Program-made: the position numbers and the translations under genes
Shown: piece after piece, positions 16,736-54,384 of the stretch
Position numbering within the stretch: the stretch's first letter is position 1
Layout of the letters: each line of letters opens with the position of its first letter
NCBI GenBank assembly: GCA_026874595.1
Contig: CM049306.1
Location: forward strand, 65,106,019-65,170,018
Direction: 5' to 3'
Source: Sipunculus nudus
Taxonomy: Eukaryota; Annelida; Sipuncula; Golfingiida; Sipunculidae
DNA length: 64,000 nt
Notes under the pieces: generated by a model
What the model saw: the letters and a program-made list of their open reading frames with translations, nothing else
Told to the model about the DNA's origin: nothing
Database searches by the model: none

Positions 16736-19020
16736 AGGTGAAGAAGAGCAAAATTAGCGATAGTTTATGAAGGTAAGGTTTATAATTTTGGAGAGATAGC
16801 CAAAATATGATATGTTGGGGAGGTGAAAGTGCAGCGCCCCCTAGTGGCTATATCCGGAAAATGAAAAATCTGTTTTGAGATATTAGTGTAACACATAAGA
16901 TGTACCAGTTTTAAAAGGATTCCTGAAAAAAACTGTGGCCTTTAGAATGCTATATATGAGACGCAAGAACCAGCAAGTAGGCGGATTTTAGGACAACTGA
17001 CAAACAGACACACTGACAAAGTGACACAAGATTGAGACCAGATGACATTATCAGTTTATGGAGAAGACTCAGAGGAAAAAAATAAGCTATAGTTTATGTA
17101 ATTGAAGCTTTGGGTTTTAGAGATATGGCCAATGTAATGATATGTGTGTGAGGGTCGTTTACAGCGCCCCCTAGCAGTCATATTCAAAAAATGAAAAAAC
17201 AATTTCTAGATACTAGTGTAGGACTTATGATATGTCAGTTTCAAAAAGATTCCTGCAATAATGTGGCCTTTGGCGCAAGATGAATGAAATCTCGAAATAT
17301 CTCTATTTTTCCCCAGAAATTTGTAACCATGGTTACGGCAAATTTGAGTAAGCTATACACCAGATGACAGGCCTTGGAATGACGATTAAAATGAGCTATT
17401 GTTGAAGTAGATACGACTAATAGTCACAAAGATATGAAGAAAAAACCCTTTTCAGAAGTTTTGACGACCTTGACCTTGACCTTTGACCTATTTTAACCAA
17501 AAACAATAGGGCACCTAGAAATTATATTTTCGAACATACCTGTAAGTTTCAAGGTTATTGTGGCAAAATTGTGGCCAGGAGAGTGGTGACAAACAAACAA
17601 ACTAGACGACCATAGGTCGAACGCTTGCCGGAATTCGGAAGTGAAACACAGACGGACAGACAGAACATATTGTCGGTTTTCTATTAATGGAATGACTCTC
17701 AGGGACATTGCTGAGAATATGTGGCCCGTAGAATGACATATGAGACAAAAGAACAGGCAAGCAGACAAAGCTGACAACAAAAGACAAACATACAGACATA
17801 CTGACTTTGTGAGACAAGATTGACACCAGATGACATAAGCTAGTTATTGAGAAGATTCAAAGGAAGAAAATGAGTTATAATTTATGTAATTTAGATTTAT
17901 AGTTTACGAGGTATGGCGAATTAATGATATACTTGGGAGGCTCGACTGTATCGCCTCTAGCAGACATATTCCGAAGACGACAAATGCGTTTCGTATTATT
18001 AGTGTATGACATGAGATGTCTCAGTTTCAAAAGGATTCCGTCAAAGTTGTGGCCTGTAGAATGCTATATGTAAGGCGTAAGAACCAGCAAGCAGGTGACT
18101 TTGAGGATAACGGACAAACAGATGGACACACTGACAAAGTGACAGAAGATTGAAACCAGATGCCTTAATCAGGTTATGGAGAAGACTCAAAGGAAGAAAA
18201 TAAGCTATAGCTTATGTAACTGAGGCTTTGGGTGTAGAGATATGGCCAATACAATGGTATGTGTGTGAGAGTCATGTGCAGCGCCCACTAGTGGCCATAT
18301 CCGGAAAATGAAAAATTTATTTCTAGATATTAGTGTAAGACATAAGATGTAATAGTTTCAAAAGGATTCCGTCAAAACTGTGGCCTACAGAATGCTATAT
18401 GTGAGACGCAAGAGCCAACAAGCAGACGATTTTGAGGACAACTGACAAACAGACGAAAACACTGACAAAGTGACTCAAAATTGAGTCCAGATGACTTCTC
18501 CAGGTTATGGAGAAGACTCAAAGGAAGAAAAAAGCTAGAGTTTATGTAACTGAGGCTTATAGTTTTGGAGATATTGCCAAAGCATGATATGTTGGGAGAG
18601 GTTCGAGTTCAGCGCCCCCTAGCGGCCATATCCGGAAAATGAAAAATTGGTTTCGAGATATTAGTGTAAGACTTAAGATGTAATAGTTTCAAAAGGATTC
18701 TTTCAAAACTGTGGCCTGTAGAATGCTATTTGTGAGACGCAAGAGCAAGCAGGCGAATTTGGGGACAACTGACAAACAGACAGACACACTGACAAAGTGT
18801 CACAAAATTGTGACCAGATGACTACACTAGGTTATGGAGAAGACTCAGAGGAAGAAAATAAGCTATAGTTTATGTAATTGAGGCTTATAATTTTGGAGAT
18901 ATGGCCAAAATATGATATGTTCGGGAGGTTCGCATCCAGCGCCCCCTAGCGGCCCTATTCAAAAAGTAAAAAAACGATTTCGAGATACTAGTGTAGGACT
19001 TATAATATGTCAGTTTCAAA
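16736..19020 (+). repeat. About 330-bp tandem array A
   Basis: Units carry, in order, TTTTGGAGATATGGCC, a GCGCCCCCTAG block, TTTCGAGATATTAGTGTA, TGTGGCCTGTAGAATGCTAT, GACAAACAGACGGACACACT and GGAGAAGACTC. The GCGCC blocks fall at about 16831, 17162, 17952, 18279, 18610 and 18937. Consecutive spacings of 326-331 bp apply except across 17480-17640, where a nuclear-receptor-type cluster and a CTAG hairpin intervene. The part 17590-18650 is duplicated at 36920-37980. Confidence 0.85.
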
Positions 19021-19600
19021 AAGATTCCTGCAATAATGTGGCCTTTGGCGCAAGATGAATGAAATCTCGAAATATCTCTATTCATGAGATATTTTACGAG
19101 ATACTGCAAGACTTGTAATAAAATCTTGTAGTACTAGTTGAATGCTACCTGAAGCAAAAAATTAGATCACTCTAGCTTTAAAACTGAAAAACTTATAAAA
19201 ATAAGACCCCTTTTTTCAAATATTATGACTTCCCCCAAAACTTGTAACCATGGTTACGGCAAATTTGAGTCAGCTACACACCAGATGACAGGCCTTGGAA
19301 TGACGATTAAAATGAGCTATTGTTGAAGTAGATACGGCTAATAGTCACAAAGATATGAAGAAAAAACGGTTTTGGGAAGATTTGACGACCTTGACCTTGA
19401 CCTTTGACCTATTTTAACCAAAAACAATAGGGCACCTAGAAATTATGTTTTCGAACATCCCTGTAAGTTTCAAGGATATTGTGGCAAAATTGTGGCCAGG
19501 AGAGTGGTGACAAACAAACAAACAGACAGACAAACAGACAAACAGACATACACAACTGACCAATATGCTTGCCGAAATCTTTGATTCCGGCAAGCAACAA

Positions 19601-19631
<31 letters not shown>

Positions 19632-20959
19632 TACGCAACTGCCCAATATGCTTGCCGAAATCTTTGATTCCGGCAAGCAACAAACAAACAGACAAAGAGA
19701 CATACAGACATACGCAACTGACGAACATGCTTGCGGAAATCGAAGATTTCCGGCAAGCAATAAAGTTGTGACTTTGCCTCCAACATGTATGATAATAGAC
19801 GGGGCCCGGAGAGGCCGTCACGCACCGCTGCACACGCCGGCCGCCCACCAAAAATTTGGTAACCATGGTAACGGCAGCACAAAGCTACATGTGCGGAGGA
19901 ATAAGCCAATGTTCCTAGTTTCAGATACGACCAAAAAAATGGTGTCACGTTTAATATTTTTTGAGATATTGCAGAAAAATGATATATTACAGTGTTTCAT
20001 GTACCACGCCCCCTGGTGGGTATTTCCAAAAAATGAAAAACTGATTTCGAGATATTTATAAATAACACAAAATATATCAATTTCAAAGCCATTGTTAAAA
20101 AAATGCAACCTGTAGGTCATATTTAATAAAATCTCGAAGACTCTCGTTTGACGAGAAATGGTGCGAGATTTGGCGAGACTTTCAGTTTTATCATGTCAAG
20201 CTGCCTATAAGGTACATAATGACCAAAACCAGACGTCTGTAGCTTAAAAATTGACAAAGGTACAAAAAATGGTCGTGTTATTTCCAATTTCCATGATTTT
20301 TGCCCAAAAAATGTAACCATGGTGACGGCAAATTTAAGTAAGCTACATGTCAAAAGAAAGGCCACGTGATGACGAAAAAAATGAGAAAATGAGCTATTGC
20401 AGAAGTGGATAAGCCTATTTATGGCGAAGTTATAGTGCAAAAACCGTTAACCATACCTGTCGTGACCTTGACCCTTGACCTTGGAGCAATGTTGACCAAA
20501 AACAATAGGGCACCTAGAAATCGGTTTGTCAATCAAGCCTGTAAGTTTCAAATTGATTGATGCAAAAGTGTGACCTGGAGAGTCGTGACAAACAAACAGA
20601 CAAAGAGACTAGACGACCAGAGGTCGAACACTTGCCGGAAGCGGAAATAAGAAAGTCAGACTAGGAGAAACATTCAGCAGGCAGGCAGTTTACATTTGGA
20701 ACTAGTCAAATGAAGTACCCGAATAATGGCGTAAACAGAAGCACAATTTTGTGTGGTTATGCTGATTTTTTTAAAAGTCGCAAAAGAGTAGACAGACAAA
20801 CAGACAGACAGACGGGAAAAAAAACTCCATGTGAAGGCCATGTACTCCTGTCATGGAGAATGGAAAACAGTCTATTAGAATAAAACTCCATATTTTGAAT
20901 TTCAAGAATAAGAAGAATTTAATTGTAACGTATATTAGGTCACCATGGTAATGGAAGAA
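19021..20959 (+). repeat. Composite modules with X-boxes and hairpin cassettes
   Basis: X-box palindromes lie at 19244-19257, 19859-19872 and 20313-20326. TGACCTTTGACC is at 19398 and a CCCCTGGTGGG block at about 20008. CTCGTTTGACGAG is at about 20146, and CTAGACGACCAGAGGTCG at about 20610. Three tandem (ACAG)n plus hairpin cassettes occupy 19501-19760. A stretch at about 19790-19855 (GAGGCCGTCACGCACCGCTG) recurs near 29190. Confidence 0.75.
19501..19760. repeat. Three tandem (ACAG)n plus hairpin cassettes
   Basis: Imperfect hairpins built from GCTTGCCGAAATC and GATTCCGGCAAGC arms lie at 19567-19595, 19650-19678 and 19729-19758. The starts are 83 and 79 bp apart, separated by ACAG/ACAA tetranucleotide tracts. 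The tetranucleotide tract opens long Cys/Val/Ser/Leu-rich frames on the minus strand; they are not genes. Confidence 0.85.
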
Positions 20960-22830
20960 TATGACAGAGTCCCCACGAGAGTAATCGTATTAAATCTAGC
21001 TTCAGATGCTGCAATCAATGTTGTGACACCGTCTATAGTTTTGGAGATATGGCACAATAATGATTGCTGCAGCGCCATCTGGGGGCTATTTTCTAAACGG
21101 AAAAAAATAAGTTTCCAGATATTTTATTTTAATATATATATTTGATGTATAATTAAAACTTTACTCCTGCCCCCAACTGCTAATCCAGGGATCAGCCCAT
21201 ATTTTGACACACCCAACTACAAAATCGGGGATCCGTCCCTGGTTTCAAAGATTTGCAAGTGGTTCCTGGCAACACAAGTGGCCGCACAAGGGGACACAAT
21301 AAAAATCACAGGTGTGTTCCCTCCACATTTAGCGGCTTTTGTCCTCTATTCAATGCTGCTTTGTGAGATTCATGCATGACCGCTCACGCCAACATGCAAC
21401 TGTAATAGCCTTGCCGGCACTTACCGGTCAACCCTGAAGCCACTTGTGCTCACGGCAATTGGATGTATTTTCATCATTTGATGAAAAACGAGGCAAGATT
21501 TGACGAGAATTGCAATAAAATCACATGATGTGACTGAGAGTGTCAGACGCTGTCAAATGCTGAAAACTATAAGTCTGTAGGGTGTAAAATGACAGCATAA
21601 TAGGCATTTGTTTAAATGGCCCACTGTTCTCGTTTGACGACAAATGGTGCGAGATATAACGAGATATTCACTTATATCACTTAACACTAATCAAATGATT
21701 GTTGAACAGTAGAAAAATGAAATCTCTAGCATAAAATTGAAAGAGATATAGACATTTGTTGAAAATTTTGTTCAAAATATCGAATATTCTCGTTTGGCGG
21801 GAGATGATGCGAGATTTGGCGAGATATGCAGTTTTATCATGTTAAGCTTCCGAAAGGCTAACAGAGGCTGAAACCGTATACTCTTTAACCTAAAACGTGA
21901 TCGAGTTATCAGCATTTCTGCGAAATCTCGTAATTTCTCGTTTGACGGAAAAACAGATCGAGATTCTACGAGACTTCTAATTGACTGGATTAGAGCCAAA
22001 GTAATGCTACCTCATGCAGAAAACTAGACCCTTGTAGTATAAATATCAACAGAGATAGAAGCAAAAAACTAATTATTTTCAGATTGTCAAGTTTTACCCC
22101 AAAATTTAGTTACCATGGTAACAGCAGCACAAAGCTACATGTACGCAGGAATAAGCCAATGATCCTAGTTTCAGATAAGACAATAAACATTGTGTCACGT
22201 TTAATATTTTTTGAGATATTGCAGAAAAAGATATGTTACAGTGTTTCAGGTACCACGCCCCCTAGTGGCTATTTCCAAAAAATGAAAAATTGATTTCGAG
22301 ATTTATAAATAACACAAAATATGTCATTTTCAAGGCCATAGTTAAAAAAAATGGCGACCGACCTCAAGGTCATATTTAATGAAATCTCGAAAAATCTCGT
22401 TCGACGAGAAATGGCACGAGATTCTACGAGACTTGGTACTTTATGATGAACACCTGATTGAAAACTTCCTGATGCAAAAAAACAGACGTCTCTAGCTCTA
22501 AAAATGGAAAAATTAGAAAAAAAATCAAATTTTGTGACGTTTTCCCCCAAAATACGTTACCATGGTAATCATTGATCGGGACAATTTGCTGGCATATGAA
22601 AAGGCAACAAAATGAGGAATAAAATGAGCTAAAGATTAAGCCGCTACGATAATTATTGACACAGATATGAAGGAAAAACCGTTTTAAGGTTTTTCAGTGA
22701 CCCTGACCTTGACCTTGAACCGACCATGGCCAAAAACAATAGGCTCCGAGAAGAACCGATTATACACTCTATCTATAAGTTTCAGGACGATAGATGCAAA
22801 ATTGTGGCCTGTAGAGCGGGGACATACAGA
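20960..22830 (+). repeat. Segmental duplicate 1, copy a (partner 35042-36910)
   Basis: Landmarks match the partner at a constant offset of about 14,080 bp: the GCGCCATCTGGGGG block, ACTCCTGCCCCCAACTGC, GGCCGCACAAGGGGACAC, CTCGTTTGGCGG, X-boxes at 22109 and 22556, and GACCCTGACCTTGACCTTG. Similarity ends within the (ACAG)n tract near 22820. Confidence 0.85.
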
Positions 22831-23297
22831 CAGACAGACAAACAAACATACGCAGGTGATCAACATGCTTGCCGAATCTTTGATTCCGGCAAGCAACAAA
22901 CATACGCGGGTGATCAACATGCTTGCGAAAATCGAAGATTTCCGGCAAGCAACAAGATGACCAGAGGTCACGCGCTTGCCGGAAATGGAAATAATACAGA
23001 CAGATAGACAGAGAGTGCATGTTGAAACAGCCATATGAATGAGCAACATTGTGGGGGCAGCAGAAACGAATAATATGTTTATGTATGCATGCTGACCTTG
23101 AATAGCTGCATACCTTTCTAGTGTAAAAGGGACCAAGTTCAAACATTTCCATGAAATCCCGTTAATCTCGTTTGACAAGAAGCAGTGAGAAGTTTTCAGA
23201 ATTGTCATGTCAAGCTGACCAAATGTTATGAAATGCCGAAACTAGACCTGTCTAGCTGTAAAAGTCGCCGAGTTATTAGCATTTCTGTGAAATCTCG
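22806..23297. repeat. (ACAG)n hairpin cassettes and module remnant
   Basis: Hairpins with CTTGCCG/CGGCAAG arms lie at 22867-22894 and 22921-22950, followed by GATGACCAGAGGTCACGCG and CTTGCCGG. The remainder to 23297 is module-like (TTTCTGTGAAATCTCG), then the TAGCTCAG element begins. Confidence 0.7.
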
Positions 23298-23933
23298 TTT
23301 TTAGCTCAGCTGACTATAAGTCATCTGAGCTATAGTCATGGTCCATTGTCCGTCGTCCGTCTGTCTGTCTGTCCGTCCGTCCGTCCGTAGATGTGGCACG
23401 TTTTGAAACCGTAAGACCTAGGAATCCAAAATTCAGCATAATGTTAGATGTCCCCAAGATCTCCTACCAAGCCGAAAACTGGGTCTTTGCGACTTCGTTC
23501 CTTTGAGAAATTAAGGAAAAACCTCAATTTTTTATTAAAATTCTATTTTCACACTTCAGGACTGCCTCATTTCAAAACCACTCATCTGTTTTTCCTCATA
23601 TTTACCATAAATATTCCTCTATATAGTTCCTATGTACATGCCAGAAATTAAGTCTGTAAAGTATAAATTCTTTAAGTTGTGGGCCCAAACATATTGGACT
23701 TTGTAATAATCAGGAAAAATAATAACTCACTTAACATGAAAAATTTTTAAACTAGAGTCTATTTTTTCAAGTATATTACTATGTTTAATTAAGATTCAAT
23801 TGTTTACCCAAAATTAGATCTGAATTTTGTAAATTTTTTAAGTTATTAGCATAAAAAAAATCAGTACCTTAAATTTTGCCCAACTTTGACCATGGCACGT
23901 TTTTTTCCTGTAAGCATATTTGATTTAATTGTA

Positions 23934-25868
23934 TCGCCAGACATAGTCTGGAGATACTATGGTTTAGGCACGGTCGCGCGGCCGCCGCCGCCACCGCCGC
24001 CGCCGCAGAGATTTCTTTTGGACACAATATCTCAAAAAATATTTCACGGATCTTTACCAAACTTGGTATATGTATAGATATGGGTGAGAGGACTACGCCT
24101 ATTTAAAATGAGGTCATGACCTCAACTAGGAGAGTGACCTTGACCTTGAATAGGTTCAATTTTGGGGAAAATCACACAAATTCTTAAATATCTCAAGAAA
24201 ACTTGCATGGATTGATCCCAAAATCAAGTTGATCGAAGATCATGGATAGGGTTGTCATGTTCCAGAAACTGGTGGCGCCACCTATTATTCTTTACTTGTT
24301 TTCATGCCGTTTAATATCCCCAAAATTGCTACTTGACAGTACTGTGAGCATTATAAGTCAAAAACTAATGGACAGATTTCTTTGATATTATGCAAATACA
24401 TAGATATGGGTTATGGGATGATGTTTATTTAAATTGGGGTCATGACCTTTCCTATGAGAGTGGCCTTGACCTTGAATATTGCCATATATGGTGAAAATCA
24501 CACAAAATCATTAATTTCTCAATAAGGGATGCACGCATTGGTCCAAAAATCAACTTGACCGAAGATCTTGGATAGTAATGTCATGTTCCAGAAACAGGTG
24601 GCGCCACCTGTTATTCTTTTACTTGTTTTCGTGCCGTTTAATACCCCATCATTGCCACTTAACAGTACATTTATAACCTGTGAGCATTATAAGTCAAAAA
24701 CTAATGGACAGATTTCTTTCATATTATGCATATACATAGACATGGGTTATGGGATGATGTATATATAAATTGGGGTCATGACCTTTCCTATGAGAGTGGC
24801 CTTGACCTTGAATATTGCCATATATGGTGAAAATTACACAAAATCATTAATATCTCAATAAGGGATGCTTGCATTGGTCCAAAAATCAACATGTTCGAAG
24901 ATCTTGGAAATTATTGTCATGTACCGGAAACAGGTGGCGCCACCTGTTATTCTTTTACTTGTTTTGTGCCGTTTAATACCCCATCATTGCCATTTATCAG
25001 TACTGTGAGCATTATAAGTCAAAAACTAATGGACAAATTTCTTTCATATTATGCATATACATGGATATGGGTTATAGGATAATGTTTATTTGAATAGGGG
25101 TCATGACCTTTCCAATGAGTGGCCTTGACCTTGAATATTGCCATATATGGTGAAAATCACACAAAATCATTAATTTCTCAATAAGGGATGGATTGATTGG
25201 TCCAAAAATCAACTTGAACGAAGATCTTGGATAGTGTTGTCATGTACGGGAAACAGGTGGTGCCACCTGTTATTCTTTTACTTGTTTTCGTGCCGTTTAA
25301 TACCCCATCATTGCCACTTAACAGTACATTTATAACCTGTGAGCATTATAAGTCAAAAACTAATGGACAGATTTCTTTCATATTATGCATATACATGGGT
25401 TATGGGATAATGTATATATAAATTGGGGTCATGACCTTTCCTATTAGAGTGGCCTTGACCTTGAATATTGCCATATATGGTGAAAATTACACAAAATCAT
25501 TAATATCTCAATAAGGGTTGCATGCATTGGTCCAAAAATCAACATGTTCCAAGATCTTGGAAACTATTGTCATGTACCGGAAACAGGTGGCGCCACCTGT
25601 TATTCTTTTACTTGTTTTGTGCCGTTTAATACCCCATCATTGCCATATATCAGTACTGTGAGCATTATAAGTCAAAAACTAATGGACAGATTTCTTGCAT
25701 ATACATAGACATGGGTTAGGGGATGATGTATATTGAAATTTGGATCATGACCTTTTCTATGAGAATGACCTTTTCTATGAGTGTGGTCTGATATTAATTG
25801 TTGCTGAAGATGGGGGGCCTTAATTGTCTGGCGATACTATGGCACCTGCGGTGCCAAGAAATATCTAG
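23934..25868 (+). mobile_element. Non-autonomous Helitron, complete, 1935 bp
   Basis: It begins TCGCCAGACATAGTCTGG, with TC after an A and an immediate CCAGAC/GTCTGG inverted repeat. It ends with a hairpin GGCACC-TGC-GGTGCC (25841-25855), nine bases, then CTAG (25865-25868) before T. The flanks fit the host element: GATTTAATT on the left and ACAGCATG on the right are nearly adjacent in the paralogous sequence near 6957-6976. A (GCC)n tract sits at about 23979-24006. The interior is a tandem array of about 330-bp units. No Rep/helicase frame is present, so it depends on another element. Both ends share GTCTGG followed by GATACTATGG as a direct subterminal repeat. Confidence 0.85.
24100..25800 (+). 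repeat. About 330-bp tandem repeat with A-B-A-B order
   Basis: The palindrome GGTGGCGCCACC marks each unit at 24271, 24597, 24933, 25256 (GGTGGTGCCACC) and 25586. Units alternate between two subtypes, so the higher-order period is about 655 bp (659 and 653). Each unit carries GTGGCCTTGACCTTGAATATT. Short in-frame stretches (FVPFNTPSLPLNSTF) recur per unit but contain no domain. Confidence 0.9.
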
Positions 25869-27126
25869 TTTATACAGCATGTAAACATAAATATTTAGTT
25901 TGTCTAAATCTGAAATTTGGAAATAAAAGCTTGAAAATTAAGCTAGTTATTGATTTTTTTTCTGTAGTCACTTGCTTTGATTACAGATGCAGGGTCCCAC
26001 TCCAGGTCACTGGAAGTCAGCTATGCCAGGGTTTCTGATTTGTTACAGTCACTGGGGGAGATCCCCTGCTGTGACAGGTATACAGTTATTCTCATATTAC
26101 CACCCCAATCCCCCCCCCCCCACAAACCCAACCCACCAAGTGTTATGCAGTAATTGTTATTGTTTTCACTGTATCTCCTTAATTGTAATGCTGTTTCCAC
26201 TCCGATATGCAAAAACTTTCCTTGAAAAAATAATTCAAGGTGTAATCCAGAAGATGCAATGTTGCGTAATGTAGCATTTTTAAAGAAATCAATTTTCTTT
26301 TAAATAATTTTAACAAATATAAAGGAACCCATCAGTATGCTTAAATTATTATAAAATATGAAGCACATTATGGATAAATAAAGACACAATTAAAAATTGT
26401 GAAATCTAAATCAAGTATTATTTTTAGATATTTATTGTTTTGCAGATTTAAAAGATATATTTTTGTGGTAAAAAATAAATAAACATTTGTATGAATGATG
26501 TGGTGTTATCTGACAAGATTGAGATTTATGATGATGCAATTGAGAATTATGAATCAACTTTTATATTCAGATATATATGTTAAATTGGAAATGTATAGAA
26601 ATATAAACTTAAATTAGAAAATAATTGATGTGATAAAAAATCAGGATTTAATACAAACATTTCTTCATTATTTTCCTGCCTCAGCAGAATTTGAGATCAG
26701 GCTTTGTTTGCCCTGTTTTATGTTGTTAATTAGCTATATTTCAACTGTATACATTTCATAAATAAAATACATATATATTCAATAATATATATTATACAAA
26801 AAAAATAGATTCAATTGAACAAATGTGTAAACTACTGAAATGTCAACAGTTAATCGAAAAACCAACTAATGATCATGGTAATAGTACAGATCATTTGTTC
26901 ACAAACTGCTCACATGCTTTAGTTTCAACATTAGGAAACACATGGTCAGGTCACAAAATATTTTTTGCAACAATTTCTTGCTCATCAATACAAACCAATC
27001 ATATAAACCAACCATGGCCTTTATTACCTCTTCCTCTTACACTTTATCTCCATTAGATATTATTTGAGATTTTCACCTTCAAGGTTAACGTCAGCTGAGC
27101 ACAGTGACCCATAGGTCCCTTGTTTA

Positions 27127-28200
27127 TCGTTTGACGAGATATGGTGCGAGATTTGGCCAGTCTTGCAGGTTTGTCATGTCAAGCCGTCCAAATGTTATGA
27201 AATGCCAAAAACTAGACCTGTGTAGCCGTAAAAGTCACCTAGTTATAAGCATTTCCATGATATTTCGTTTTTTTCTCGCTTGACGAGATATGGTGCAAGA
27301 TTTGGCCTGATTTCTTTTCTGGCGTATCAAGCTGGTCATATATTATGAAATGCCGAAACCTAGACCTGTGTAGCTGTAAAAGTCGCCTAGTTATTGGCAT
27401 TTCTGTGAAATCTTATTTTTTATCGTTTGACGAGATATGGTGCGAGATTTGACCAGTCTTGCAGGTTTGTCATGTCAAGCCATCCAAATGTTATGAAATG
27501 CCAAAAACAAGACCTGTCAAGCCGTAAAAGTCGCCGACTTATATGCATTTCTGTGAAATCTCGTTTTTCCACATTTGACCAGATATAGTGCGAGATTTGG
27601 CCAGTCTCGCAGTTTTACTATGTCAAGTTGGCCGATTGTTACCAAATGTCGAAAACTAGACCTGAGTAGCTGTAAAAGTCGCCTAGTTATTGGCATTTCT
27701 GTGAAATCTCGTTTTTTATCGTTTGACGAGATATGGTGCGAGATTTGGCCAGTCTTCAGGTTTGTCATGTCAAGCCATCCAAATGTTACGAAATGCCAAA
27801 AACTAGACCTGACTAGCCGTAAAAGTCGCTGACATGTATGCATTACTGTGAAATCTCGTTTTTTCACATTTGACCAGATATAGTGCGAGATTTGGCCAGT
27901 CTTGCAGTTTTACTATGTCAAGTTGGACAAATGTTACCAAATGCCGAAAACTAGACCTGAGTAGCTGTAAAAGTCGCCTAGTTATAAGCATTTCCATGAT
28001 ATTTCTTTTTTTCTCGCTTGACGAGATATGGTGCAAGTTTTGGCCTGATTTCTTTTCTGGCGTATCAAGCTGGTCATATATTATGAAATGCCGAAAACTA
28101 GACCTGTCTAGCTGTAAAAGTCGCCGAATTATAAGCATTTCCTTGAAATCTCGTTTTTTTCTCGTTTGACGATAAACCGAGCGAAATTTGACGAGACTTG
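27127..28200 (+). repeat. 147-149 bp tandem array, 8 copies
   Basis: TTGACGAG/TTGACCAG starts at 27131, 27280, 27427, 27575, 27723, 27870, 28018 and 28166, giving spacings of 147-149. Units carry GATATGGTGCGAGATTTGGCC, TGTCATGTCAAGC, GAAATGCC and TAAAAGTCGCC. Subtypes with CGTTTGACGAG and ACATTTGACCAG alternate in part. Confidence 0.9.
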
Positions 28201-31600: not shown

Positions 31601-32290
31601 GCAAGATTACTGAAATCTCGAAATATCTCGTTTGACGAGATTTTATAGGAGATATCGCGAAACTTTTAATTAAATCTTGCAGTACTTGTTAAATGCTACC
31701 TGATGCAAAAAACTAGACCTCTCTAGCTTTAAAACTGACAAAGTTAGAAAAATAAGACCCCTTATTTCAGAATATCATGACTTTTCCCCCCAAATGCGTA
31801 ACCATGGTTACGGCAAATTTGAAAGAGCTACACACCAGAAGAAAGGCCTGGGAATGACGTTTAAAATGAGCTATGTTTGAAGAAGATACCCCTAATAGTA
31901 ACAAAGATATGAAGAAAAATCCGTTTTGTATACTTTTGATGGCCTTGACCTTGTCCTTTGACCTATATTGTCCAAAAACAATAGGCTTCTTGCATTTTTG
32001 ATTATCTATAAAGTGTGTAAGTTTGAAAGTGATTGGTGCAAAATTGAGACCTGTAGAGAGATGACAGACAAACAGACTAGATGACCTGAGGTCACGCGCT
32101 TGCCGGAAATGATGTAAAGTTAGTCAAATGAACGAGCAGTATAAAAGTGAAAGAAAATAATCCATAGTTTGTGAAGAAAGAACCAATATTAACAAAGTTC
32201 TAAAGAAAATAAGATTTTGATATATTTTGATCACCTTGTCCTTGACCTTTGACTTATTTGAATAATAAACATAGGACTTCCAGATATCAT
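31601..32290 (+). repeat. Composite module between arrays B and C
   Basis: It contains CTCGTTTGACGAG (about 31628), an X-box at 31798-31811, a GGCCTTGACCTTGTCC cluster at about 31940, and CTAGATGACCTGAGGTCACG at about 32079. The stretch after about 32100 repeats 30355-30540 almost base for base. Confidence 0.75.
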
Positions 32291-34395: not shown

Positions 34396-35225
34396 ATATT
34401 AGGCCCCCATGGTAACGGAAGAATATGACAGAGTCTTCACGAGGATAAACCCATTAAATCTAGTTTCAGATGCTGCAATCAATGTTGTGACACTATCTCT
34501 AGTTTTATAGATATGGCAAAAAAATGATTGCTGCAGTGCCATCTGGCGGCTATTATTAAAAGGACAAAAAGTAAGTTTCGAGATATTTTATTTTTTTTAA
34601 TAAATATTTGATGTATGATTAAATTTAAACTTCTGCTGAATATGACAATGTCCCCACGAGGAAAACGCATTAAATCTAGGTTCAGAAGCTGCAATCAATG
34701 TTGTGACACCGTCTATAGTTTTGGAGATATGGCACAATAATGATTACTGCAGCGCCATCTGAAAGGAAAAAAAATAGTTTCGAGATATTTTATTTTTAAT
34801 TATATATATTTTATGTATAATCAAACTTTAACCCCCGCGGAATACGACAGTCCCCACGAGGTTAAACGCTTTAAATCTAGTTTCAGAAGCTGCAATCAAT
34901 GTTGTGATACTGTCTATAGTTTTGGAGATATGGCACAATAATGATTGCTGCAGCGCCATCTGAAAGGGAAAAAAATAGTTTCGCGATATTTTAATTTTTA
35001 TTATATATATTTTATGTATAATTAAAATTTAACCCCCACAGAATACGACAGAGTCCCAACGAGGTTAAACGCATTAAATATAGTTTCAGAAGCTGCAATC
35101 AATGTTGTGACACTGTCTATAGTTTTGGAGATATGGCACAATAATGATTGCTGCAGCGCCATCTGGGGGCTATTTTCTAAAAAGAAAAAAATAAATTTCC
35201 AGATATTTTATTTTAATATATATAT
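34396..35225 (+). repeat. About 200-215 bp tandem array, 4 copies
   Basis: TAGTTTTGGAGATATGGCACAA-type starts lie near 34498, 34715, 34917 and 35118. Each is followed by GATTGCTGCAGCGCCATCTG (or a close variant), a TATATATTTTATG stretch, and ACGACAGAGTCCCCACGAGG. Spacing is about 200-215 bp. The last unit leads into duplicate 1. Confidence 0.8.
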
Positions 35226-36910
35226 TTGATGTATAATTAAAATTTTACTCCTGCCCCCAACTGCTTAACCAGGGATCAGCCCATATTTTGACACCCCCAA
35301 CTACAAAATCGGGGATCCGTCCCTGGTTTCAAAGATTTGCCAGTGGTTCCTGGCAACACAAGTGGCCGCACAAGGGGACACAATAAAAATCACAGGTGTG
35401 TTCCCTCCACATTTAGCGGCTTTTGTCCTCTATTCAATGCTGCTTTGTGAGGTTCATGGACGACCGCGCACGCCAACATGCAACTGTAATAGCCTTGCCG
35501 GCACTTACCGGTCAACCCTGAAGCCACTTGTGCTCACGGCAGTTGGATGTATTTTCATCATTTGATGAAAAACGAGGCAAGATTTGACGAGAATTGCAAT
35601 AAAATCACATGATGTGAATGAGAGTGTCAGACGCTGTCAAATGCTAAAAACTATATGTCTGTAGGGTATAAAATGACAGCATAATAGGCATTTGTATAAA
35701 TGGTCCACTGTTCTCGTTTGACGACAAATGGTGCGAGATATAACGAGATATTCATTTATATCACTTAACACTAATCAAATGATTGTTGAACAGTAGAAAA
35801 ATAAAATCTCTAGCATAAAATTGAAAGAGATAAAGACATTTGTTGAATATTTTGTTCAAAATATCGAATATTCTCGTTTGGCGGTAGATGATGCGAGATT
35901 TGGCGAGATTTGCAGTTTTATCATGTTAAGCTTCCGAAAGGCTACCAGAGGCTGAAACCGTATACTCTTTAACCTAAAACGTGATCGAGTTATCAGCATT
36001 TCTGCGAAATCTCGTAATTTCTCGTTTGACGGAAAAACAGATCGAGATTCTACGAGACTTCCAATTGACTGGATTGGAGCCAAAGGAATGCTACCTCATG
36101 CAGAAAACTAGACCCTTGAAGTATAAATATCAACAGAGATAGAAGCAAAAAACTAATTATTTTCAGATTGTCAAGTTTTACCCCAAAATTTGGTTACCAT
36201 GGTAACGGCAGCACAAAGCTACATGTACCCAGGAATAAGCCAATGATCCTAGTCTTAGATGCGACAAAAGAAATTGTTATATGCTTCATATTTTTTAAGA
36301 TGTTGTGCAAAAATGATAAGTTGTAGTGTTACCAGTACCACGCCCCCTGGTGGCTTTTTAAAAAAAATGAAAAAACAATTTCGAGATATTTATAAATAAC
36401 ACAAAATACATTAATTTCAAAGCCATTGTTAATAAAATGCAACCTGCAGGTCATATTTAATGAAATCTCGAAAACTCTCGTTTGACGAGAAATAGTGCGA
36501 GGTTTTGCGGGATTAACAATTCTATCATAAACAGCTCATGAAATACTACCTGATGCAGAAAACTAGAACTCTCTAGCTTTAAAAATGAAAAATTTAGAAA
36601 GAAAATATCGAATTCTATCATTTCTTCCCAAAAATACGTTACTATGGTAACGAATGATCAGAGATATTTGCTAGCATGTGGAAAGGTAACATGATGAGGA
36701 ATAAAATGAGCTAAAGATTAAGCCGCTACGATTATTTTTTACAAAGATATGAAGGAAAATCCGTTTTAAGGTTTTTCAGGGACCCTGACCTTGACCTTGA
36801 ACCGTTCAAGGCCAAAAACAATAGGCACCCAGGGTTTTCGATTTTACACTTTTTCTATAAGTTTCAGGGCGATTGCTTCAGAATTGTGGCCTGTAGAGCA
36901 CCGACAAACA
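35042..36910 (+). repeat. Segmental duplicate 1, copy b (partner 20960-22830)
   Basis: This is colinear with the partner at about 14,080 bp offset, with scattered substitutions. X-boxes are at 36193-36206 and a variant at about 36649. A CCCCCTGGTGGC block is at about 36341 and GACCCTGACCTTGACC at about 36780. It ends in the (ACAG)n tract at about 36905. Confidence 0.85.
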
Positions 36911-37985
36911 AACAGACAGACAGACAAACAAACTAGACGACCATAGGTCGAACGCTTGCCGGAAATCGGAAGTGAAACTTAGACGGACAGACAGAACATA
37001 TTGTCGGTTTTCTATTAATGGAATGACTCTCAGGGACATTGCTGAGAATATCTGGGCCGTAGAATGACATATGAGACAAAAGAACAGGCAAGCAGACAAA
37101 GCTGACAACAAAAGACGAACAGACAGACATACTGACTTTGTGAGACAAGATTGACACCAGATGACATAACCTAGTTATTTAGAAGATTCAAAGGAAGAAA
37201 ATGAGTTAAAGTTTATGTAATTTAGATTTATAGTTTTGGAGGTATGGCGAATTAATGATATACTTGGGAGGCTCGACTGTAGCGCCCTCTAGCAGACATA
37301 TTCCAAAGACGACAAATGGGTTTCGTATTATTAGTGTATGACATGAGATGTCCCAGTTTCAAAAGGATTCCGTCAAAGCTGTGGCCTGTAGAATGCTAGA
37401 TGTAAGGTGTAAGAACCAGCAAGCAGGCGACATTGAGGATAACGGACAAACAGATGGACACACTGACAAAGTGCAAAAGATTGAAACCAGATGCCTTAAT
37501 CAGGTTATTAAGAAGACTCAAAGGTAGAAAATAAGCTATAGTTTATGTAACTGAGGCTTTGGGTGTAGAGATATGGCCAATACAATGGTATGTATGTGAG
37601 GGTCGTGTGCAGCGCCCACCAGTGGCCACATCAGGAAAATGAAAAATTCATTTCTAGATATTAGTGTAAGATATAAGATGTAATAGTTTCAAAAGGATTC
37701 CGTCAAAACTGTGGCATATAGAATGCTATATGTGATATGCAAGAGCCAACAAGCAGGCGAATTTTAGGACAACTGACAAACAGACGAAAACACTGACAAA
37801 GTAACTCAAGATTGAGTCCAGATAACTTCTCCAGGTTATGGAGAAGACTCAAAGGAAGGAAAAAGCTACAGTTTATGTAACTGAGGTTTATAGTTTTGGA
37901 GATATTGCCAAAGCATGATATGTTGGGAGAGGTCCGAGTTCAGCACCCCCTAGCGGCCATATCCGGAAAATGAATTTTTCATCAT
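36911..37985 (+). repeat. About 330-bp array D; duplicate 2 (partner 17590-18650)
   Basis: This is colinear with 17590-18650 at an offset of 19,330-19,331 bp, from CTAGACGACCATAGGTCG (36933) to the CCCCCTAGCGGCC block at about 37941. Unit spacing is 330 bp (about 37281, 37611, 37941). Confidence 0.85.
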
Positions 37986-40860
37986 CCCTGTAAGTTTCAA
38001 AGTTATTGTGGCAAAATTGTGGCCAGCAGAGTGATGACAAACAAACAAACAGACAAACAGACAAGACCTCGGCGCCGTCTAGCGGTCATATTGAAGCAAA
38101 CAAAACAATGCTCTAAATAATAATGGAAGACATATTTTATATCAGTTTCAAAAGAATGTATGTAAAACTGTGGCTTGTTGGTTGATACATGTAAGATAGA
38201 AGCACCAGGGAGCAAGCGAAAATGAGATCAGCGAAAAAAGACATACACTGACAAAGTGATAACGGATATGACCAGATGACTTGATCAATTTATGTCAAAG
38301 ACTAAGACGAAGAAGATTAGCTATAATGGGTGTAATTAAGACTAATATTTTTAGAGATATGGCCGAAATATGACGTAAGTGTGGGTAGACTGCAGCTCTC
38401 CCAAGCGGCCACAGCCAGAAAAATAAAAAAAAGTGTCTAGATATTAGTGCAGAAGGAAAACTGTACGTGTCTCGAAAGTATTCATGCAAAATTGGGGAAT
38501 TGGGGCTTGTAGACAGCTAACGTAAGATGCACACACCGAAAAGCTGGTAAAAATTAGCTCAGTGGAAAAAGAGATAGACATACTGCCAACGCATGACACA
38601 AGATGGAGACCAGATATGAACCAACCAGATTATAATGAAGATTCATGGCAAGATAATAAGCTATAACTGATGTAATAAAGATCAATAGTTTTGAAGATAT
38701 CACCAACAGTATGAAACGTCATATTAAGAAGATTGTAGCGCCCCCTAACGGCATTGGTAAGAAATTGAAAAAAATGGATTTATAGATTTGATTACAAGAG
38801 GTAAGATGTACCAGTATCAAAGGATTCATGCTAAACTGTGGTTTGTGAATTCATATATGTAAGATGCAAGCACTGGCCAGCTAGTAAAACTGGGCACATC
38901 GGACAAAGACACGGACATACACACAAAGTGACACATATGAGACAAACGCTGTCAAACAAAAGTTGTGTATGAAACCAAGAGAAAAAAGTTAGTGAAGATG
39001 CGACTAAAATTGACAAAGTCATGGCCGAAAACATGATAAGTCAGATTGAATCCACTGCAGCGCCACCTAGTGACTACAGCCACAGCATGAAAATTGAGTT
39101 TCTAGATATGAGTACAATACAATGGATGTTTCAGTTTGAAAAGGATTCGTGGAAAACTGTGGCTTGCAGATTACAATTTGAATGATTGAAGCACTGGCAA
39201 ACAAGCAAAACCGAGGACAGCGGACAAAGGCACGGACATACTGATTCGTGAAGATCTCTGGCTTGCAGATAACAATATGTAAGATGCAAATACCGTCAAA
39301 CAAGCAAAAATGAGGACAGCGGACAAAGACACGGACATATTGACCAAGTTACATATCTGAGAGAAAAATGGTCCAAACAAAAGGTGTGGGGAGGACCAAG
39401 AGGAAGAAAATGAACCTAAGATTGTGACGATACGACCAAAACTGACAAAGTAATGAAGAAAATGAAATTTCAAGGTATTTCGATGACCTTGACCTTTGAC
39501 CTCTATTGACCAATAGCAATAGGGTTCTTGCATTTTTGATTGTCCACCAAATGTATAAGTTTGAAAGCGATTGAAGCAATATTGTGTCCTGTAGAGACTG
39601 GACAGACAAAAGAACAAACATACAGACAAGTTTATACATCAAATATTTTTGGAATTATCGCCAAGAGAAAAAGGATGAGCCTAAGTTTGTGAAGATACGA
39701 CTAAACTTGACAGAGTTCTGTCTGAAAACATGATACGTCAGCTTGGGTTGACTGCAGCGCCTCCTAGCGGGCACAGCCAGAAAATAAAAAACCCATTTCT
39801 CGATATTAGTGCAAGACATAATACGTACCAGTTTCAAATAGATTTGTGCAAAACTATGGCTTGTGCATTGCTATAGGTAACATGTTACACAAACGAGCGG
39901 GCGTGATTGTGGACAACTGGCAAACAGAGAGACATACTGAGACAATGACACGAGATTGTGACCAGATGATATCACTATTTGATGAGAAGACTCAGGGCAA
40001 GAAAATAAGCTCTAATTTATGTACATACTACTTATATTTTTGGAGATATGGTCAAAAGACGATATGCTAGGGTGGGTTGACTGCTGCGCCCCCTAGCGGC
40101 CATATTCACAAAATGAAAAACAAATTTCTAGATATTAGTACAAGACAGAAGATGTACCAGTTTCAAAAGGATTCGTGCAAAAATGTGGCCTGTACATTGC
40201 TATATGTAAGATACAAGCACCGGCAAGCAAGCGAAACTGAAGACACCGGACAAACAGACGGCCATACTGACAAAGTGACAAATGATTCAGGCCAGATGAC
40301 CCATCGATAACATCCAGAAGACTCAAGGCAAGAATATAAGCTATAATATATGTAATTACGACTAACATTTTTGGAGATATGGCCGAAAGACGACATGTTC
40401 GAGCGGGGTTGACTGCAGCGCCCCCTAGCGGCCACAGCCAGAAAATGAAATACCTGTTTCTAGATATTAGTCTCAGAAATAAGATGTACTAGTTTCAAAA
40501 AGATTCGTTAAAAACTATGGCTTGTACTTTGCTATATGTAACATGTTACACCAACCAGCGGGCGTGGTTGTGGACAGCAGACAAACAGACAGACACACTG
40601 ACAAAGTGACACAAGATTGAGACCAGATGACCCAACCAGAATATAGGGAAGACTCAGGACAAGAAAATAAGCTATAATTTATGTAAGTAAGATCAATTGT
40701 TTTGGAGATATGGTCAAAACAAGATATGTCACTGTGTATTCGCTGCAGCGCCCCCTGGCGGTCAAATTCAAAAAATGGAAAAATAATTTCGAGATATTGC
40801 TGTTGGATATAAAATATATCAGTTTCATAACAAATACTTCAAATTTGTGGCATCTAGGGT
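37986..40860 (+). repeat. About 330-bp tandem array E, more diverged
   Basis: GCGCC blocks lie at about 38067, 38393, 38736, 39059, 39754, 40084, 40416 and 40746, mostly 323-343 bp apart. The gap at 39100-39700 includes TGACCTTTGACCT at 39490. Units keep TTTGGAGATATGG, TTCTAGATATTAGT and GTGGCYTGTA but diverge more than arrays A-D, so this array looks older. Confidence 0.8.
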
Positions 40861-41400
40861 ATCATTAATGATATCACGAAATATCTCGTATGGCGAGATT
40901 TCATGCTAGAATTGGCGAGACTTGGATCGTCGAGAACTCTTGACGGGCTACATTATGCAAAAAACCAGACCTCTCTAGCTATAAAACTGACAAAGTTACA
41001 AAAATTAGGCCTTTTATTTTCGAAAACCATGAGTTTTCCCCAAAAATGTGTAACCATAGAAACAGCAGATTTCAGCAACATATATATATCAGAAGAAAGG
41101 CCTTGGAATGCCGATTAAAATGAGCCATGTTTGAAGTGGCTATGACAAATAGTAATGGAGATATGAAGAAAAGAGCACTTTAGGAACTTTTGATGACCTT
41201 GACCTTGACCTTTGACCTATATTGCCCAAAAACAATAGGCTTCTTGCATTTTTGATTTTACACAAACTGTGAAAGTTTGAAAGCGATGGGATCAAAATTG
41301 GGACCTGTAGAGACTGGACAGACAAACAAACAAACAGACAAACAGACATCCGCGACTGACCAACCAGCTTGCGAAAATCGAAGATTTCCGGCAAGAAACA
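40861..41400 (+). repeat. Composite module leading into the 1274-bp array
   Basis: It holds a degenerate X-box (about 41051), TGACCTTTGACCT at 41206, an AACAATAGG site at about 41230, an (ACAA/ACAG)n tract and a hairpin at 41367-41395. Confidence 0.7.
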
Positions 41401-44400
41401 AACGGAACTGATCAACATACTTGTCGAAATCTCTGATTCCGGCAAGCAATAAACTATAACGCGACAGAAATGGCAAACCGGCCCGCAAAGAGTGCCTGTG
41501 GCCACTTATTTTATACGGCGAACGCTATAATTTTTGCAGTCACGTGAAAGCGTGTCTGTCTTTCATACTAAAACGCGTGCATGCATGCGTGATGGCATAT
41601 GTATTTGTGCATGCGGGTTTTAATTTTTACAAAGTTGCTAAAATTGGCGGGGACCATGTATGATTAAACAAAAGAGGTCATGGGCAGAAAGGCCATGAAA
41701 GGCCAATTCATATGGTGTACAGTTTATGTACCTAAAATGTGTAGTTGTGGAGATATGGTTAAACAATGATAGTAGGTACGGGGTTGCAGTGCAGCGCCCC
41801 CTAGCGGTAATTTTCCAAAAACTGAACAATTGCTCTCGAGATATTAGTGTATGACGTAACATGTATCAGTTTCAAAAGGATGCCTGCATATCTGTGGCCT
41901 ATAGGGCATGTCACCGTGAAATCGCGAAATCTCATTCGACGAGAAACGGTGCGAGATTTTGCAAGATTTTTGGTTGGATCACCGAGAACTCACAAGGGCT
42001 ACAAGATGCAAAAATTTCGACCTCTCTAGCATAAAAACTGACAGAGTTAGAAGCTGAAAACTGCATATTTTCAAAATTCAAAGGTTTTACCCCAAAAATA
42101 GAGAAATCTGGCAATAGCGCACTTTGGCACCTATGCGCAAAAATAAGCCCATGGACCCTAGTTTAAGGTGCTGTGATGGAAATGGCCCAATGTTTAATAG
42201 TTCTGGAGGTATAGCACCAAAACAAATTTTCATGTTTTTTCATCTGCAACGCCCCCTGGCGGCCATTTCCAAAATCTGAAAAACCCGTTTCGAGATATTC
42301 TTATGTTACATAAAATATCTCAGAATCAGTAAAATTGCTGCAAATTTGAAAAATATCACGAAATTCCATGATTTCTCCCCAAAATTGCGTAACCATGGTA
42401 ACAGCGAAATGAGGCAATTTGGCAGTGTTGGAAGTGGCCATGCAGTGGCAAATAAAACGGGCTACAGATTAGGTGCCTACGGCTATTTTTGACGCAGGTA
42501 TAAAGAAAAAACCGTTTTTGAGCTTTTTGGTGACCCTGACCTTGACCCTTGACCGATCATGACCAAAAACAACAGGCTCCGAGAAGAACCGATTATACAC
42601 TCTATCTATAAGTTTCAGGACGATTGGTGCAAAATTGTGGCCTGTAGAGCGGGGACATACAGACAAACAAACAAACGGAACTGATCAACATACTTGTCGA
42701 AATCTCTGATTCCAGCAAGCAATAAACTATAACGCGACAGAAATGGCAAACCGGCCCGCAAAGAGTGCCTGTGCTCACTTATTTTATACGGCGAACGCTA
42801 TAATTTTTGCAGTCACGGGAAAGCGTGTCTGTCTTTCATACTAAAACGCGTGCATGCATGCGTGATGGCATATGTATTTGTGCATGCGGGTTTTAATTTT
42901 TACAAAGTTGCTAAAATTTGTGGGGACCGTGTATGATTAAACAAAAGAGGTCATGGGCAGAAAGGCCATGAAACGCCAATTCATATGGTGTACAGTTTAT
43001 GTACCAAAAATGTGTAGTTTTGGAGATATGGTTAAACAATGATAGTAGGTACGGGGTTGCAGTGCAGCGCCCCCTAGCGGTAATTTTCCAAAAACTGAAC
43101 AATTGCTCTCGAGATATTAGTGTATGACGTAACATGTATCAGTTTCAAAAGGATGCCTGCATATCTGTGGCCTATAGGGCATGTCACCGTGAAATCGCGA
43201 AATCTCATTCGACGAGAAACGGTGCGAGATTTTGCAAGATTTTTGGTTGGATCACCGAGAACTCACCAAGGGCTACAAGATGCAAAAATTTCGACCTCTC
43301 TAGCATAAAAACTGACAGAGTTAGAAGCTGAAAACTGCATATTTTCAAAATTCAAAGGTTTTACCCCAAAAATAGAGAAATCTGGCAATAGCGCACTTTG
43401 GCACCTATGCGCAAAAATAAGCCCATGGACCCTAGTTTAAGGTGCTGTGATGGAAATGGCCCAATGTTTAATAGTTCTGGAGGTATAGCACCAAAACAAA
43501 TTTTCATGTTTTTTCATCTGCAACGCCCCCTGGCGGCCATTTCCAAAATCTGAAAAACCCGTTTCGAGATATTCTTATGTTACATAAAATATCTCAGAAT
43601 CAGTAAAATTGCTGCAAATTTGAAAAATATCACGAAATTCCATGATTTCTCCCCAAAATTGCGTAACCATGGTAACAGCGAAATGAGGCAATTTGGCAGT
43701 GTTGGAAGTGGCCATGCAGTGGCAAATAAAACGGGCTACAGATTAGGTGCCTACGGCTATTTTTGACGAAGGTATAAAGAAAAAACCGTTTTTGAGCTTT
43801 TTGGTGACCCTGACCTTGACCCTTGACCGATCATGACCAAAAACAATAGGCTCCGAGAAGAACCGATTATACACTCTATCTATAAGTTTCAGGACGATTG
43901 GTGCAAAATTGTGGCCTGTAGAGCGGGGACATACAGACAAACAAACAAACGGAACTGATCAACATACTTGTCGAAATCTCTGATTCCGGCAAGCAATAAA
44001 CTATAACGCGACAGAAATGGCAAACCGGCCCGCAAAGAGTGCCTGTGCTCACTTATTTTATACGGCGAACGCTATAATTTTTGCAGTCACGGGAAAGCGT
44101 GTCTGTCTTTCATACTAAAACGCGTGCATGCATGCGTGATGGCATATGTATTTGTGCATGCGGGTTTTAATTTTTACAAAATTGCTAAAATTTGTGGGGA
44201 CCGTGTATGATTAAACAAAAGAGGTCATGGGCAGAAAGGCCATGAAATGCCAATTCATATGGTGTACAGTTTATGTACCAAAAATGTGTAGTTTTGGAGA
44301 TATGGTTAAACAATGATAGTAGGTACGGGGTTGCAGTGCAGCGCCCCCTAGCGGTAATTTTCCAAAAACTGAACAATTGCTCTCGAGATATTAGTGTATG

Positions 44401-45221
44401 ACGTAACATGTATCAGTTTCAAAAGGATGCCTGCATATCTGTGGCCTATAGGGCATGTCACCGTGAAATCGCGAAATCTCATTCGACGAGAAACGGTGCG
44501 AGATTTTGCAAGATTTTTGGTTGGATCACCGAGAACTCACCAAGGGCTACAAGATGCAAAAATTTCGACCTCTCTAGCATAAAAACTGACAGAGTTAGAA
44601 GCTGAAAACTGCATATTTTCAAAATTCAAAGGTTTTACCCCAAAAATAGAGAAATCTGGCAATAGCGCACTTTGGCACCTATGCGCAAAAATAAGCCCAT
44701 GGACCCTAGTTTAAGGTGCTGTGATGGAAATGGCCCAATGTTTAATAGTTCTGGAGGTATAGCACCAAAACAAATTTTCATGTTTTTTCATCTGCAACGC
44801 CCCCTGGCGGCCATTTCCAAAATCTGAAAAACCCGTTTCGAGATATTCTTATGTTACATAAAATATCTCAGAATCAGTAAAATTGCTGCAAATTTGAAAA
44901 ATATCACGAAATTCCATGATTTCTCCCCAAAATTGCGTAACCATGGTAACAGCGAAATGAGGCAATTTGGCAGTGTTGGAAGTGGCCATGCAGTGGCAAA
45001 TAAAACGGGCTACAGATTAGGTGCCTACGGCTATTTTTGACGAAGGTATGAAGAAAAAACCGTTTTTGAGCTTTTTGGTGACCCTGACCTTGACCCTTGA
45101 CCGATCATGACCAAAAACAATAGGCTCCGAGAAGAACCGATTATACACTCTATCTATAAGTTTCAGGACGATTGGTGCAAAATTGTTGCCTGTAGAGCGG
45201 GGACATACAGACAAACAAACA
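41401..45221 (+). repeat. Three near-identical 1273-1274 bp tandem units
   Basis: AACGGAACTGATCAA begins at 41401, 42674, 43948 and 45222, giving unit lengths of 1273, 1274 and 1274. Units two and three differ at only a handful of positions; unit one is slightly more distinct. Each unit holds, in order, a GATTCCGGCAAGC hairpin, GCATGCATGCGTGATG, a GCGCCCCCTAGCGG block, CTCATTCGACGAG, a CGCCCCCTGGCGGCC block, an X-box (42389, 43663, 44937), a GACCCTGACCTTGACCC cluster, an AAACAAYAGGCTCC site and an ACAAACAAAC tract. No conserved long ORF is present. Confidence 0.97.
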
Positions 45222-46140: not shown

Positions 46141-46220
46141 AATTTGCGATCTTTAGAGTGGAGACAGGCTGACAGACAACCATCTAAACAGAGAGACAAA
46201 CAGAGATACGGAACTGACAT

Positions 46221-54381: not shown

Positions 54382-54384
54382 AAA

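Follow-up and report, generated by a model that had tools for sequence, protein, structure and literature searches.

A one-directional field of CTCF-like words carried by a putative HINE-like Helentron in Sipunculus nudus

Background

Rodent B2 short interspersed nuclear elements (SINEs) spread CTCF sites. Here we describe a field of CTCF-like words in a 64,000-nucleotide stretch of the Sipunculus nudus assembly GCA_026874595.1 (contig CM049306.1, positions 65,106,019 to 65,170,018 of the forward strand; the whole stretch is called the window below, and its contig C1), together with the element that carries them, for which a HINE-like Helentron is well supported. The HINE plan comprises a 5' subterminal inverted repeat (subTIR), a complementary inverted repeat (IR), a GTCY microsatellite, central repeats, a 3' subTIR and a palindrome; the subTIRs measure about 11-15 bp, and insertion takes place in oligo-T without target-site duplication (PMC7492417; PMC4067079). 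For CTCF, fingers 3, 4 and 5 are listed as reading GRKGGCRSY (PMC8629902, Table 1). In vitro, human CTCF is reported to bind sites of the H19 type, in which C2 is part of a CpG, with a dissociation constant (KD) of about 150-160 nM, and full methylation weakens its binding to H19-type CpG sites (PMC10325916). On whether CTCF acts as an oriented loop anchor outside vertebrates, reports on echinoderms (PMC13317027) and on an annelid describe no direction pattern of CTCF motifs, and a review states that no CTCF-motif directionality was identified in squid.

In the window, the field consists, as we think probable from the sequence comparisons below, of nested and tandem HINE-like copies whose words would be bound by the host CTCF, the kept words favouring the spread of the element.

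Results

CTCF-like words in the window

The word GCGCCCCCTAGYGGC is found five times exactly and 33 times with at most three mismatches, and all 33 copies are on the plus strand (16834-44811). With the vertebrate CTCF matrix (JASPAR MA0139.1), 40 matches at p<1e-5 were obtained in the window, where 1.3 are expected by chance and ten Markov-1 controls gave 0-5 matches. The minus strand carries 37 of the 38 that fall within 15-46.5 kb, and the fit of the CTCF-like word to the matrix extends over 19 bp. The field of about 40 CTCF-like motifs pointing one way over 28 kb, which an earlier sequence-only reading had described, is thereby confirmed. That reading also put a copy perfect at 15 positions at 16831: the copy is real, being the sole strict match (15/15) to CCASYAGRKGGCRSY in the window, and it lies at 16833-16847, so that the figure given was off by two bases. 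When position 3 is widened to A/G, the window contains 16 matches to CCASYAGRKGGCRSY. Word forms treated as candidate CTCF sites include CCGCTAGGGGGCGCT and CCACTAGGGGGCGCT. The spacing of about 330 bp that had been given for arrays A-E applies in part, to 13 of 32 distances between neighbouring CTCF-like words (about 331 bp; 323-335 bp), in five arrays. These arrays and the related repeat families are as follows.

16834..18953, minus strand: array A in two parts, 331-bp modules, CTCF-like words at 16834, 17164; 18281, 18612, 18939
17949, minus strand: extra module of array A, word with a one-base gap
30828..31504, minus strand: array B, CTCF-like words at 30828, 31159, 31490
32567..33243, minus strand: array C, CTCF-like words at 32567, 32898, 33229
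37282..37957, minus strand: array D, CTCF-like words at 37282, 37612, 37943
39757..40762, minus strand: array E, CTCF-like words at 39757, 40086, 40418, 40748
41393..45275, minus strand: 1273-bp unit in three copies, 98-99% alike, with two CTCF-like words each (41794/42249, 43067/43523, 44341/44797)
34559..35165, minus strand: 201-bp AT-rich tandem family, a distant homologue, with AGATGGCGC-type or decayed words at 34751 and 34952

Copies at 21071, 33944 and 34535 are similar to the 201-bp AT-rich family.

Two kinds of word in one slot

Modules were collected with a profile of 17 units, which were chosen by the word and in which the word and six bases on each side were then masked. At E<1e-3 this profile matches the window in 63 stretches, which share one strand; 51 of them cover the word slot, while 11 shuffled or reversed controls gave nothing below E 0.098. 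The slot holds a CTCF-like word (at most three mismatches) in 39 of the 51 modules, a word gapped by one base in one, and a nuclear-receptor-like (NR-like) word, TGACCTTTGACC or TGACCTTGACC, in 11 (10 exact and one with two mismatches). For this classification, position 3 of the CTCF alphabet was A/G, and words were sought within about 75 bases in the window and about 95 bases outside it. The NR-like words, which we take to be DR1- and ERR/NR5A-like, are located at these positions.

17477..17488, minus strand: NR-like word TGACCTTTGACC, in the slot homologous to that of the CTCF word
16348, 19398, 28926, 30197, 33658, 36786, 39490, 41206, 45085, minus strand: other NR-like words (TGACCTTTGACC or TGACCTTGACC)
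46072, minus strand: weak NR-like word

Outside the window, 30 loci (175,531 bases) contain 212 slot-spanning modules, of which 144 are CTCF-like (111 mismatch-free), 64 are NR-like (48 mismatch-free) and 4 belong to neither class, so that one of the two words fills the slot in 208 of 212. Eleven of 29 small loci were omitted here, as they are covered by a larger stretch. All loci were retrieved with the word-free left flank of a CTCF-type unit, and the share of NR-like modules is therefore no genome-wide figure.

Conservation of the words

Conservation in the window was evaluated on 34 of the 40 CTCF-type modules, six modules, distant members of the 201-bp AT-rich family, being unalignable and excluded. 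The word has 2.25 parsimony changes per column, compared with 4.02 for the flanks and 5.12 for their G/C columns; of 180 alignment windows, CAGCGCCCCCTAGCGG has the lowest value. In a larger set of 160 sequences, with trees made from the flanks only, a choice that works against a claim of conservation, the corresponding values are 4.67, 6.93 and 9.49; this set omits 201-bp-like modules, matches with E>1e-10, modules near an end, identical sequences and the NR module at 46072, and modules classed as "other" stayed in it if long enough. With composition corrected for, the word has the lowest value among the 180 windows, at a ratio of 0.56 (0.58 with the word in the background). The earlier claim that the word is more conserved than its flanks in aligned units is borne out by these values. 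Without the window copies, the word has 3.4 changes and the G/C flanks 6.3, and for the window copies alone the numbers are 2.0 and 5.2. With a single module per locus, the contrast stays in 20 of 20 draws (1.09 vs 2.25 changes per column in the G/C flanks).

The constraint is distributed unevenly over the trees. Internal branches carry 14 word changes, compared with 54.5 expected from matched column sets (p=5e-6), and terminal branches carry 56, compared with 76.3 (p=0.012); the internal-terminal contrast relative to the G/C flanks is significant (Fisher p=4e-4). We read this as a word that is constrained on the lineages that spread and weakly protected after insertion, and the constraint on internal branches suggests a benefit to the element itself.

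For the NR modules, the word as first defined, TGACCTTTGACC, shows no clear excess conservation overall (ratio 0.85, rank 60 of 175, p 0.42). The lowest window is GACCTTGACCTT, next to TGACCTTTGACC, at a ratio of 0.31; by branch, it is the lowest on internal branches (0.12 of expectation) and third on terminal branches (0.38). Conservation across the 11 window copies is good in CCAAAAACAATAGG too, a few bases downstream of the NR-like words.

Predicted recognition by the host CTCF

The CTCF gene of the species (L009, C11:67037578-67038510) encodes 11 fingers and is 56% identical to the human finger region. Its fingers 3-5 equal the human ones at 12 of 12 base-contact positions, and in terms of host base contacts the GRKGGCRSY half of the motif is covered and the CCASYA half is covered in part. 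At the seven degenerate positions of the word, 20 of 34 changes stay within the CTCF alphabet, whereas 11.9 ± 2.7 are expected from the flank spectrum; this test is reported without position 3, which an earlier version (29/43) had widened post hoc to A/G. The CpG columns of the word change about half as often as the six CpG columns of the flanks (7.5 vs 14.7). From the methylation effect at H19-type sites, the word sites would be methylation-sensitive.

Several results weigh against host CTCF binding to kept words. Most array words have CCG instead of CCA at position 3, and finger 6 of the host CTCF keeps one of four and finger 7 two of four human contact positions, both belonging to the CCASYA half. 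In the substitution test, 54 of 2187 alphabet assignments equal the fit of CTCF (CTCF's own included) and slid controls reach z 2.87 vs 3.06 for the word, so the support from substitutions is moderate. Change per position does not correlate significantly with matrix information (rho -0.40, p 0.14). When composition is left uncorrected, two AT-rich blocks are more conserved than the word in the 160 sequences, and the word falls to rank 15 of 180 windows if only terminal branches are counted. C>T or G>A accounts for 24 of the 30 changes seen at the word's two CpGs, which suggests germline methylation of the copies and argues against constant protection.

The word had been called a near-perfect vertebrate CTCF core. 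This description stands with regard to matrix fit, conservation and fingers 3-5, and it is weakened by fingers 6-7, with only 3 of 8 contacts. Taking both sides together, the host CTCF probably recognises the words in the repeat units. A literature search on the bare word returned a CTCFL paper with an oligo of such kind; judged by title, nothing on molluscs or repeats was found.

Anatomy of the carrier element

When stretches of ten kilobases from 12 contigs were aligned, an element about 1.5-1.8 kb long was seen to recur in them, and its ends are constant. One end is CTAGATGACCTGAGGTCACGCGCTTGCCGGAAATG, and the other is ...ACAGACATCCGCGACTGACCAACCAGCTTGCGAAAATCGAAGATTTCCGGCAAGC, followed by an A-rich tail. 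The 13-nt subTIR GCTTGCCGGAAAT lies close to both ends of the copies on other contigs; the 5' subTIR has a complementary IR nearby (GCTTGCCGGAAATC-TTC-GATTTTCGCAAGC), and the palindrome TGACCTGAGGTCA adjoins the 3' subTIR. The repeat (ACAG/ACAA)n on the plus strand is a GTCY-like microsatellite on the element strand, and the 331-bp modules take the place of the central tandem repeats. This HINE anatomy is legible in four copies (L048, L049, L052 and L053), and in three of them (L048, L049 and L052) both flanks are unrelated to the element. The ends are T-rich in element orientation in four inspected copies. The typical order of words is NR - CTCF - CTCF - (CTCF) - NR; in a typical copy read 5'->3', the 5' subTIR with its IR and then the GTCY-like microsatellite precede these modules, and the 3' subTIR and the palindrome follow them. 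Most copies on other contigs agree with one another at 95-98%, and they are about 90-94% identical to the window copies. In the window, the following parts were assigned.

15806..46160, minus strand (element 5'->3'): composite field of HINE-like copies, from word-masked profile matches
30335..32077, minus strand: element copy with its 3' palindrome end at 30335; an NR-like word, three CTCF-like words at 331 bp, an NR-like word
32078..33803, minus strand: second element copy, in tandem with the 30335..32077 copy and with equal word order
45412..45442, minus strand: element 3' end, palindrome and subTIR (eight such ends in the window)
16500, 17603, 20610, 30335, 32078, 33804, 36934, minus strand: further element 3' ends
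45315..45408, minus strand: element 5' end, subTIR and complementary IR, reading ATTTCCGGCAAGC on the plus strand
19747, 22939, 29124, 45333, 45397, minus strand: further subTIR copies

The copy at 30335..32077 lacks its 5' terminus at the tandem junction, and it aligns with copies on other contigs at about 90-94% with an identical 3' end. All eight 3' ends in the window are on one strand and none is on the other. The palindrome is present in 8 of 8 ends in three stem versions (CGACC/GGTCG, TGACC/GGTCA and CAACC/GGTTG), which speaks for a conserved hairpin. Within 14-47 kb, self-matches on the same strand number 384 and those on opposite strands 2, so the shared motif direction results from same-direction duplication, and a reading of this direction as a sign of function finds no support. 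No Rfam family reached its gathering score in the window and a tRNA scan of the window was also empty, so that neither a known RNA family nor a SINE of tRNA origin is indicated. Scans of viral_contigs and genome_contigs for related modules found nothing. From the above, the carrier is well supported, by its anatomy, as a non-autonomous Helentron of HINE-like type in tandem and nested copies and no simple satellite.

Helitron_like_N has 143 matches in the genome, several of them in open frames of more than 2,200 aa. Stop-free frames of 1,882-2,250 aa are located at C7:31578448, C11:50385293, C4:36174940, C8:80139053 and other places, which suggests that long, perhaps intact, autonomous Helitron-type elements are present. 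A sequence beginning ACTGTGCCTCCAACATGTATGAT lies behind the element 5' end at about 29,145 of the window and also in the right flank of copy L053 (5834-5913); either this flank is itself repetitive or both copies have a common origin.

Dispersal in the genome and the cluster on C1

The exact word occurs 3,435 times in the genome (reversed control, 0), and CTCF-like 15-mers with A/G at position 3 occur 13,741 times vs 94 for the reversed control, an excess of about 146-fold. For unit flanks without the word, 40 matches of 98-100% identity are spread over 15 contigs (scored candidates, 40 of 1521), and a 70-mer has 31 exact copies on 12 contigs and both strands. The 5'-end pattern of the element, with 2-6 bases between subTIR and IR, has 1802 copies in the genome (control, 0). 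The comparison drawn with B2 SINEs holds in principle, the carrier being mobile and dispersed, although it is a Helentron and no SINE. For isolated CTCF-like sites, 20 were chosen by eye among 100 places listed; 16 of them are outside the element (four of these in two duplicated pairs), and the motif thus occurs away from the element too.

The locus had also been considered unusual. With so many such 15-mers genome-wide and comparable one-directional fields elsewhere on C1, this idea is not supported: among the matches listed for the first 7.7 Mb of C1 there are fields of 25, 12, 10 and 11 words, each one-directional, and the 25 CTCF-like words at C1:307-327 kb all point one way.

Among the first 100 element 5' ends listed, all on C1, 67 lie within 64.34-66.17 Mb, the region of the window. 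By hand count of these listed ends, 54 of 54 are on the minus strand in 64.342-65.778 Mb, 12 of 12 are on the plus strand in 65.950-66.069 Mb, and one at 66.167 Mb is minus. Samples at 65.83, 65.85 and 65.87 Mb (L079-L081, over 40 kb) contain the 1273-bp unit of the window at 98-99% in window orientation, which places the strand switch between 65.87 and 65.95 Mb; two unit-flank matches beyond it, at 65.954 and 65.958 Mb, run the opposite way. If words are present in the plus block as they are elsewhere, the two blocks have motifs that point apart. A 129-bp satellite fills C1:65810000-65811499 (L078). Our guess is that the cluster at 64.34-66.17 Mb may be a pericentromeric block.

Other features of the window

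An open frame on the plus strand at 5191-5838 ends in a C3HC4 RING finger (PF13920, E 2.9e-11), and a RING E3 ligase gene probably has its last exon here. The interval 53293-56262 contains a low-complexity open frame, inside which repeats of 69/138/206 bp occur, and after it a tandem array with a 187-bp unit; the ORF 53293-54378 has no match in Pfam. Inverted pairs of another repeat family (about 71-85% identity) flank the field at 11598-12924 and 59902-60549.

Discussion

If the host CTCF binds the words of the HINE-like copies, copies that keep them would spread more, perhaps via CTCF and nuclear receptors keeping the element accessible in germline chromatin. After insertion, the words would decay under weak protection, and the dense one-directional CTCF cluster in the window would be a by-product of element amplification.

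The word may instead be kept for another protein, such as a replication protein encoded by the element or another zinc-finger protein, with its resemblance to a CTCF site being incidental. Constraint on internal branches is expected of any part needed for spreading, and hundreds of zinc-finger stretches exist in the genome (318 matches to the CTCF finger query). However, the word is internal and not terminal, its fit to CTCF covers 19 bp, its substitutions lean to bases that CTCF tolerates, and CTCF-like 15-mers also stand outside the element, as in the 16 of 20 isolated sites; we consider this explanation unlikely. It is rather unlikely, too, that the host maintains the window locus itself as a strong, one-directional boundary or loop anchor, a view suggested by 38 CTCF-like sites in about 29 kb, 37 of them one way, by mammalian tandem CTCF arrays such as DXZ4, which are reported to form boundaries (PMC6985041), and by the reported enrichment of a CTCF-like motif at boundaries of squid topologically associating domains (PMC9023564). 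Comparable fields are found elsewhere, the direction derives from duplication, protection on terminal branches is weak, and the report on echinoderms describes no orientation pattern of CTCF motifs (PMC13317027).

Two further explanations dispense with a role of CTCF. The arrays are clearly homogenised, as the 1273-bp units, 98-99% alike, demonstrate, and conservation could be a by-product of gene conversion or unequal crossing-over without selection; yet homogenisation would hit the flanks equally, and the contrast survives in every draw with one module per locus, which makes this very improbable. The word could also serve as the box of a satellite or centromere protein, comparable to the CENP-B box, within a pericentromeric block. 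Such a box would fit the dense cluster at C1:64.3-66.2 Mb with its strand switch and the repeats in it (129-bp satellite, 65.81 Mb; 1273-bp unit, 65.83-65.87 Mb), but copies of the element are found on many contigs and the word fits CTCF, and we rate this as the most remote of the explanations.

Beyond the binding of host CTCF to kept words, a wider interpretation can be put forward only tentatively. The Helentron modules might be interchangeable regulatory cassettes, with a CTCF or an NR site per slot, whose words are kept as an aid to spreading; thousands of oriented CTCF sites would then have been scattered, with megabase-scale one-directional domains and a strand switch at C1:65.87-65.95 Mb, and chromosome folding would perhaps have been reshaped. 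A genome with thousands of CTCF-like sites, many of them strictly oriented, and a strand switch about 0.7-0.8 Mb from the window offers a natural experiment on the question of oriented anchors outside vertebrates. In the literature searched, no paper combining Helentron and CTCF was found, and as far as it shows, this would be the first Helentron carrying CTCF sites. Helitron and "CTCF binding sites" do co-occur in the literature.

In comparison with known systems, the element is like the Pacific oyster Cg_HINE (PMC7492417) in the 5' subTIR, the complementary IR, the GTCY-type microsatellite, the central tandem repeats, the 3' subTIR with palindrome and the genome-wide dispersal described there. 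It differs in that its modules bear CTCF-like and NR-like words and in that tandem copies can lack the 5' terminus; the main text of the Cg_HINE paper contains no mention of CTCF. With the H19-type vertebrate sites, the word shares a CpG at motif position C2 (PMC10325916); those sites are single and mammalian, while the words described here are in repeats, and finger 7 of the host CTCF has I for human V454. As in DXZ4, FIRRE and ICCE of the mammalian X, a CTCF site, here a predicted one, recurs from unit to unit; those are described as single X-linked loci with 3-kb units, with the DXZ4 boundary proven (PMC6985041), whereas the present copies are dispersed in thousands. Like the rodent B2 SINEs, a mobile element has multiplied CTCF-like sites, which are here predicted sites; unlike them, the carrier is a rolling-circle DNA transposon, each copy of which has several words arranged in tandem modules, and the genome is of invertebrate type.

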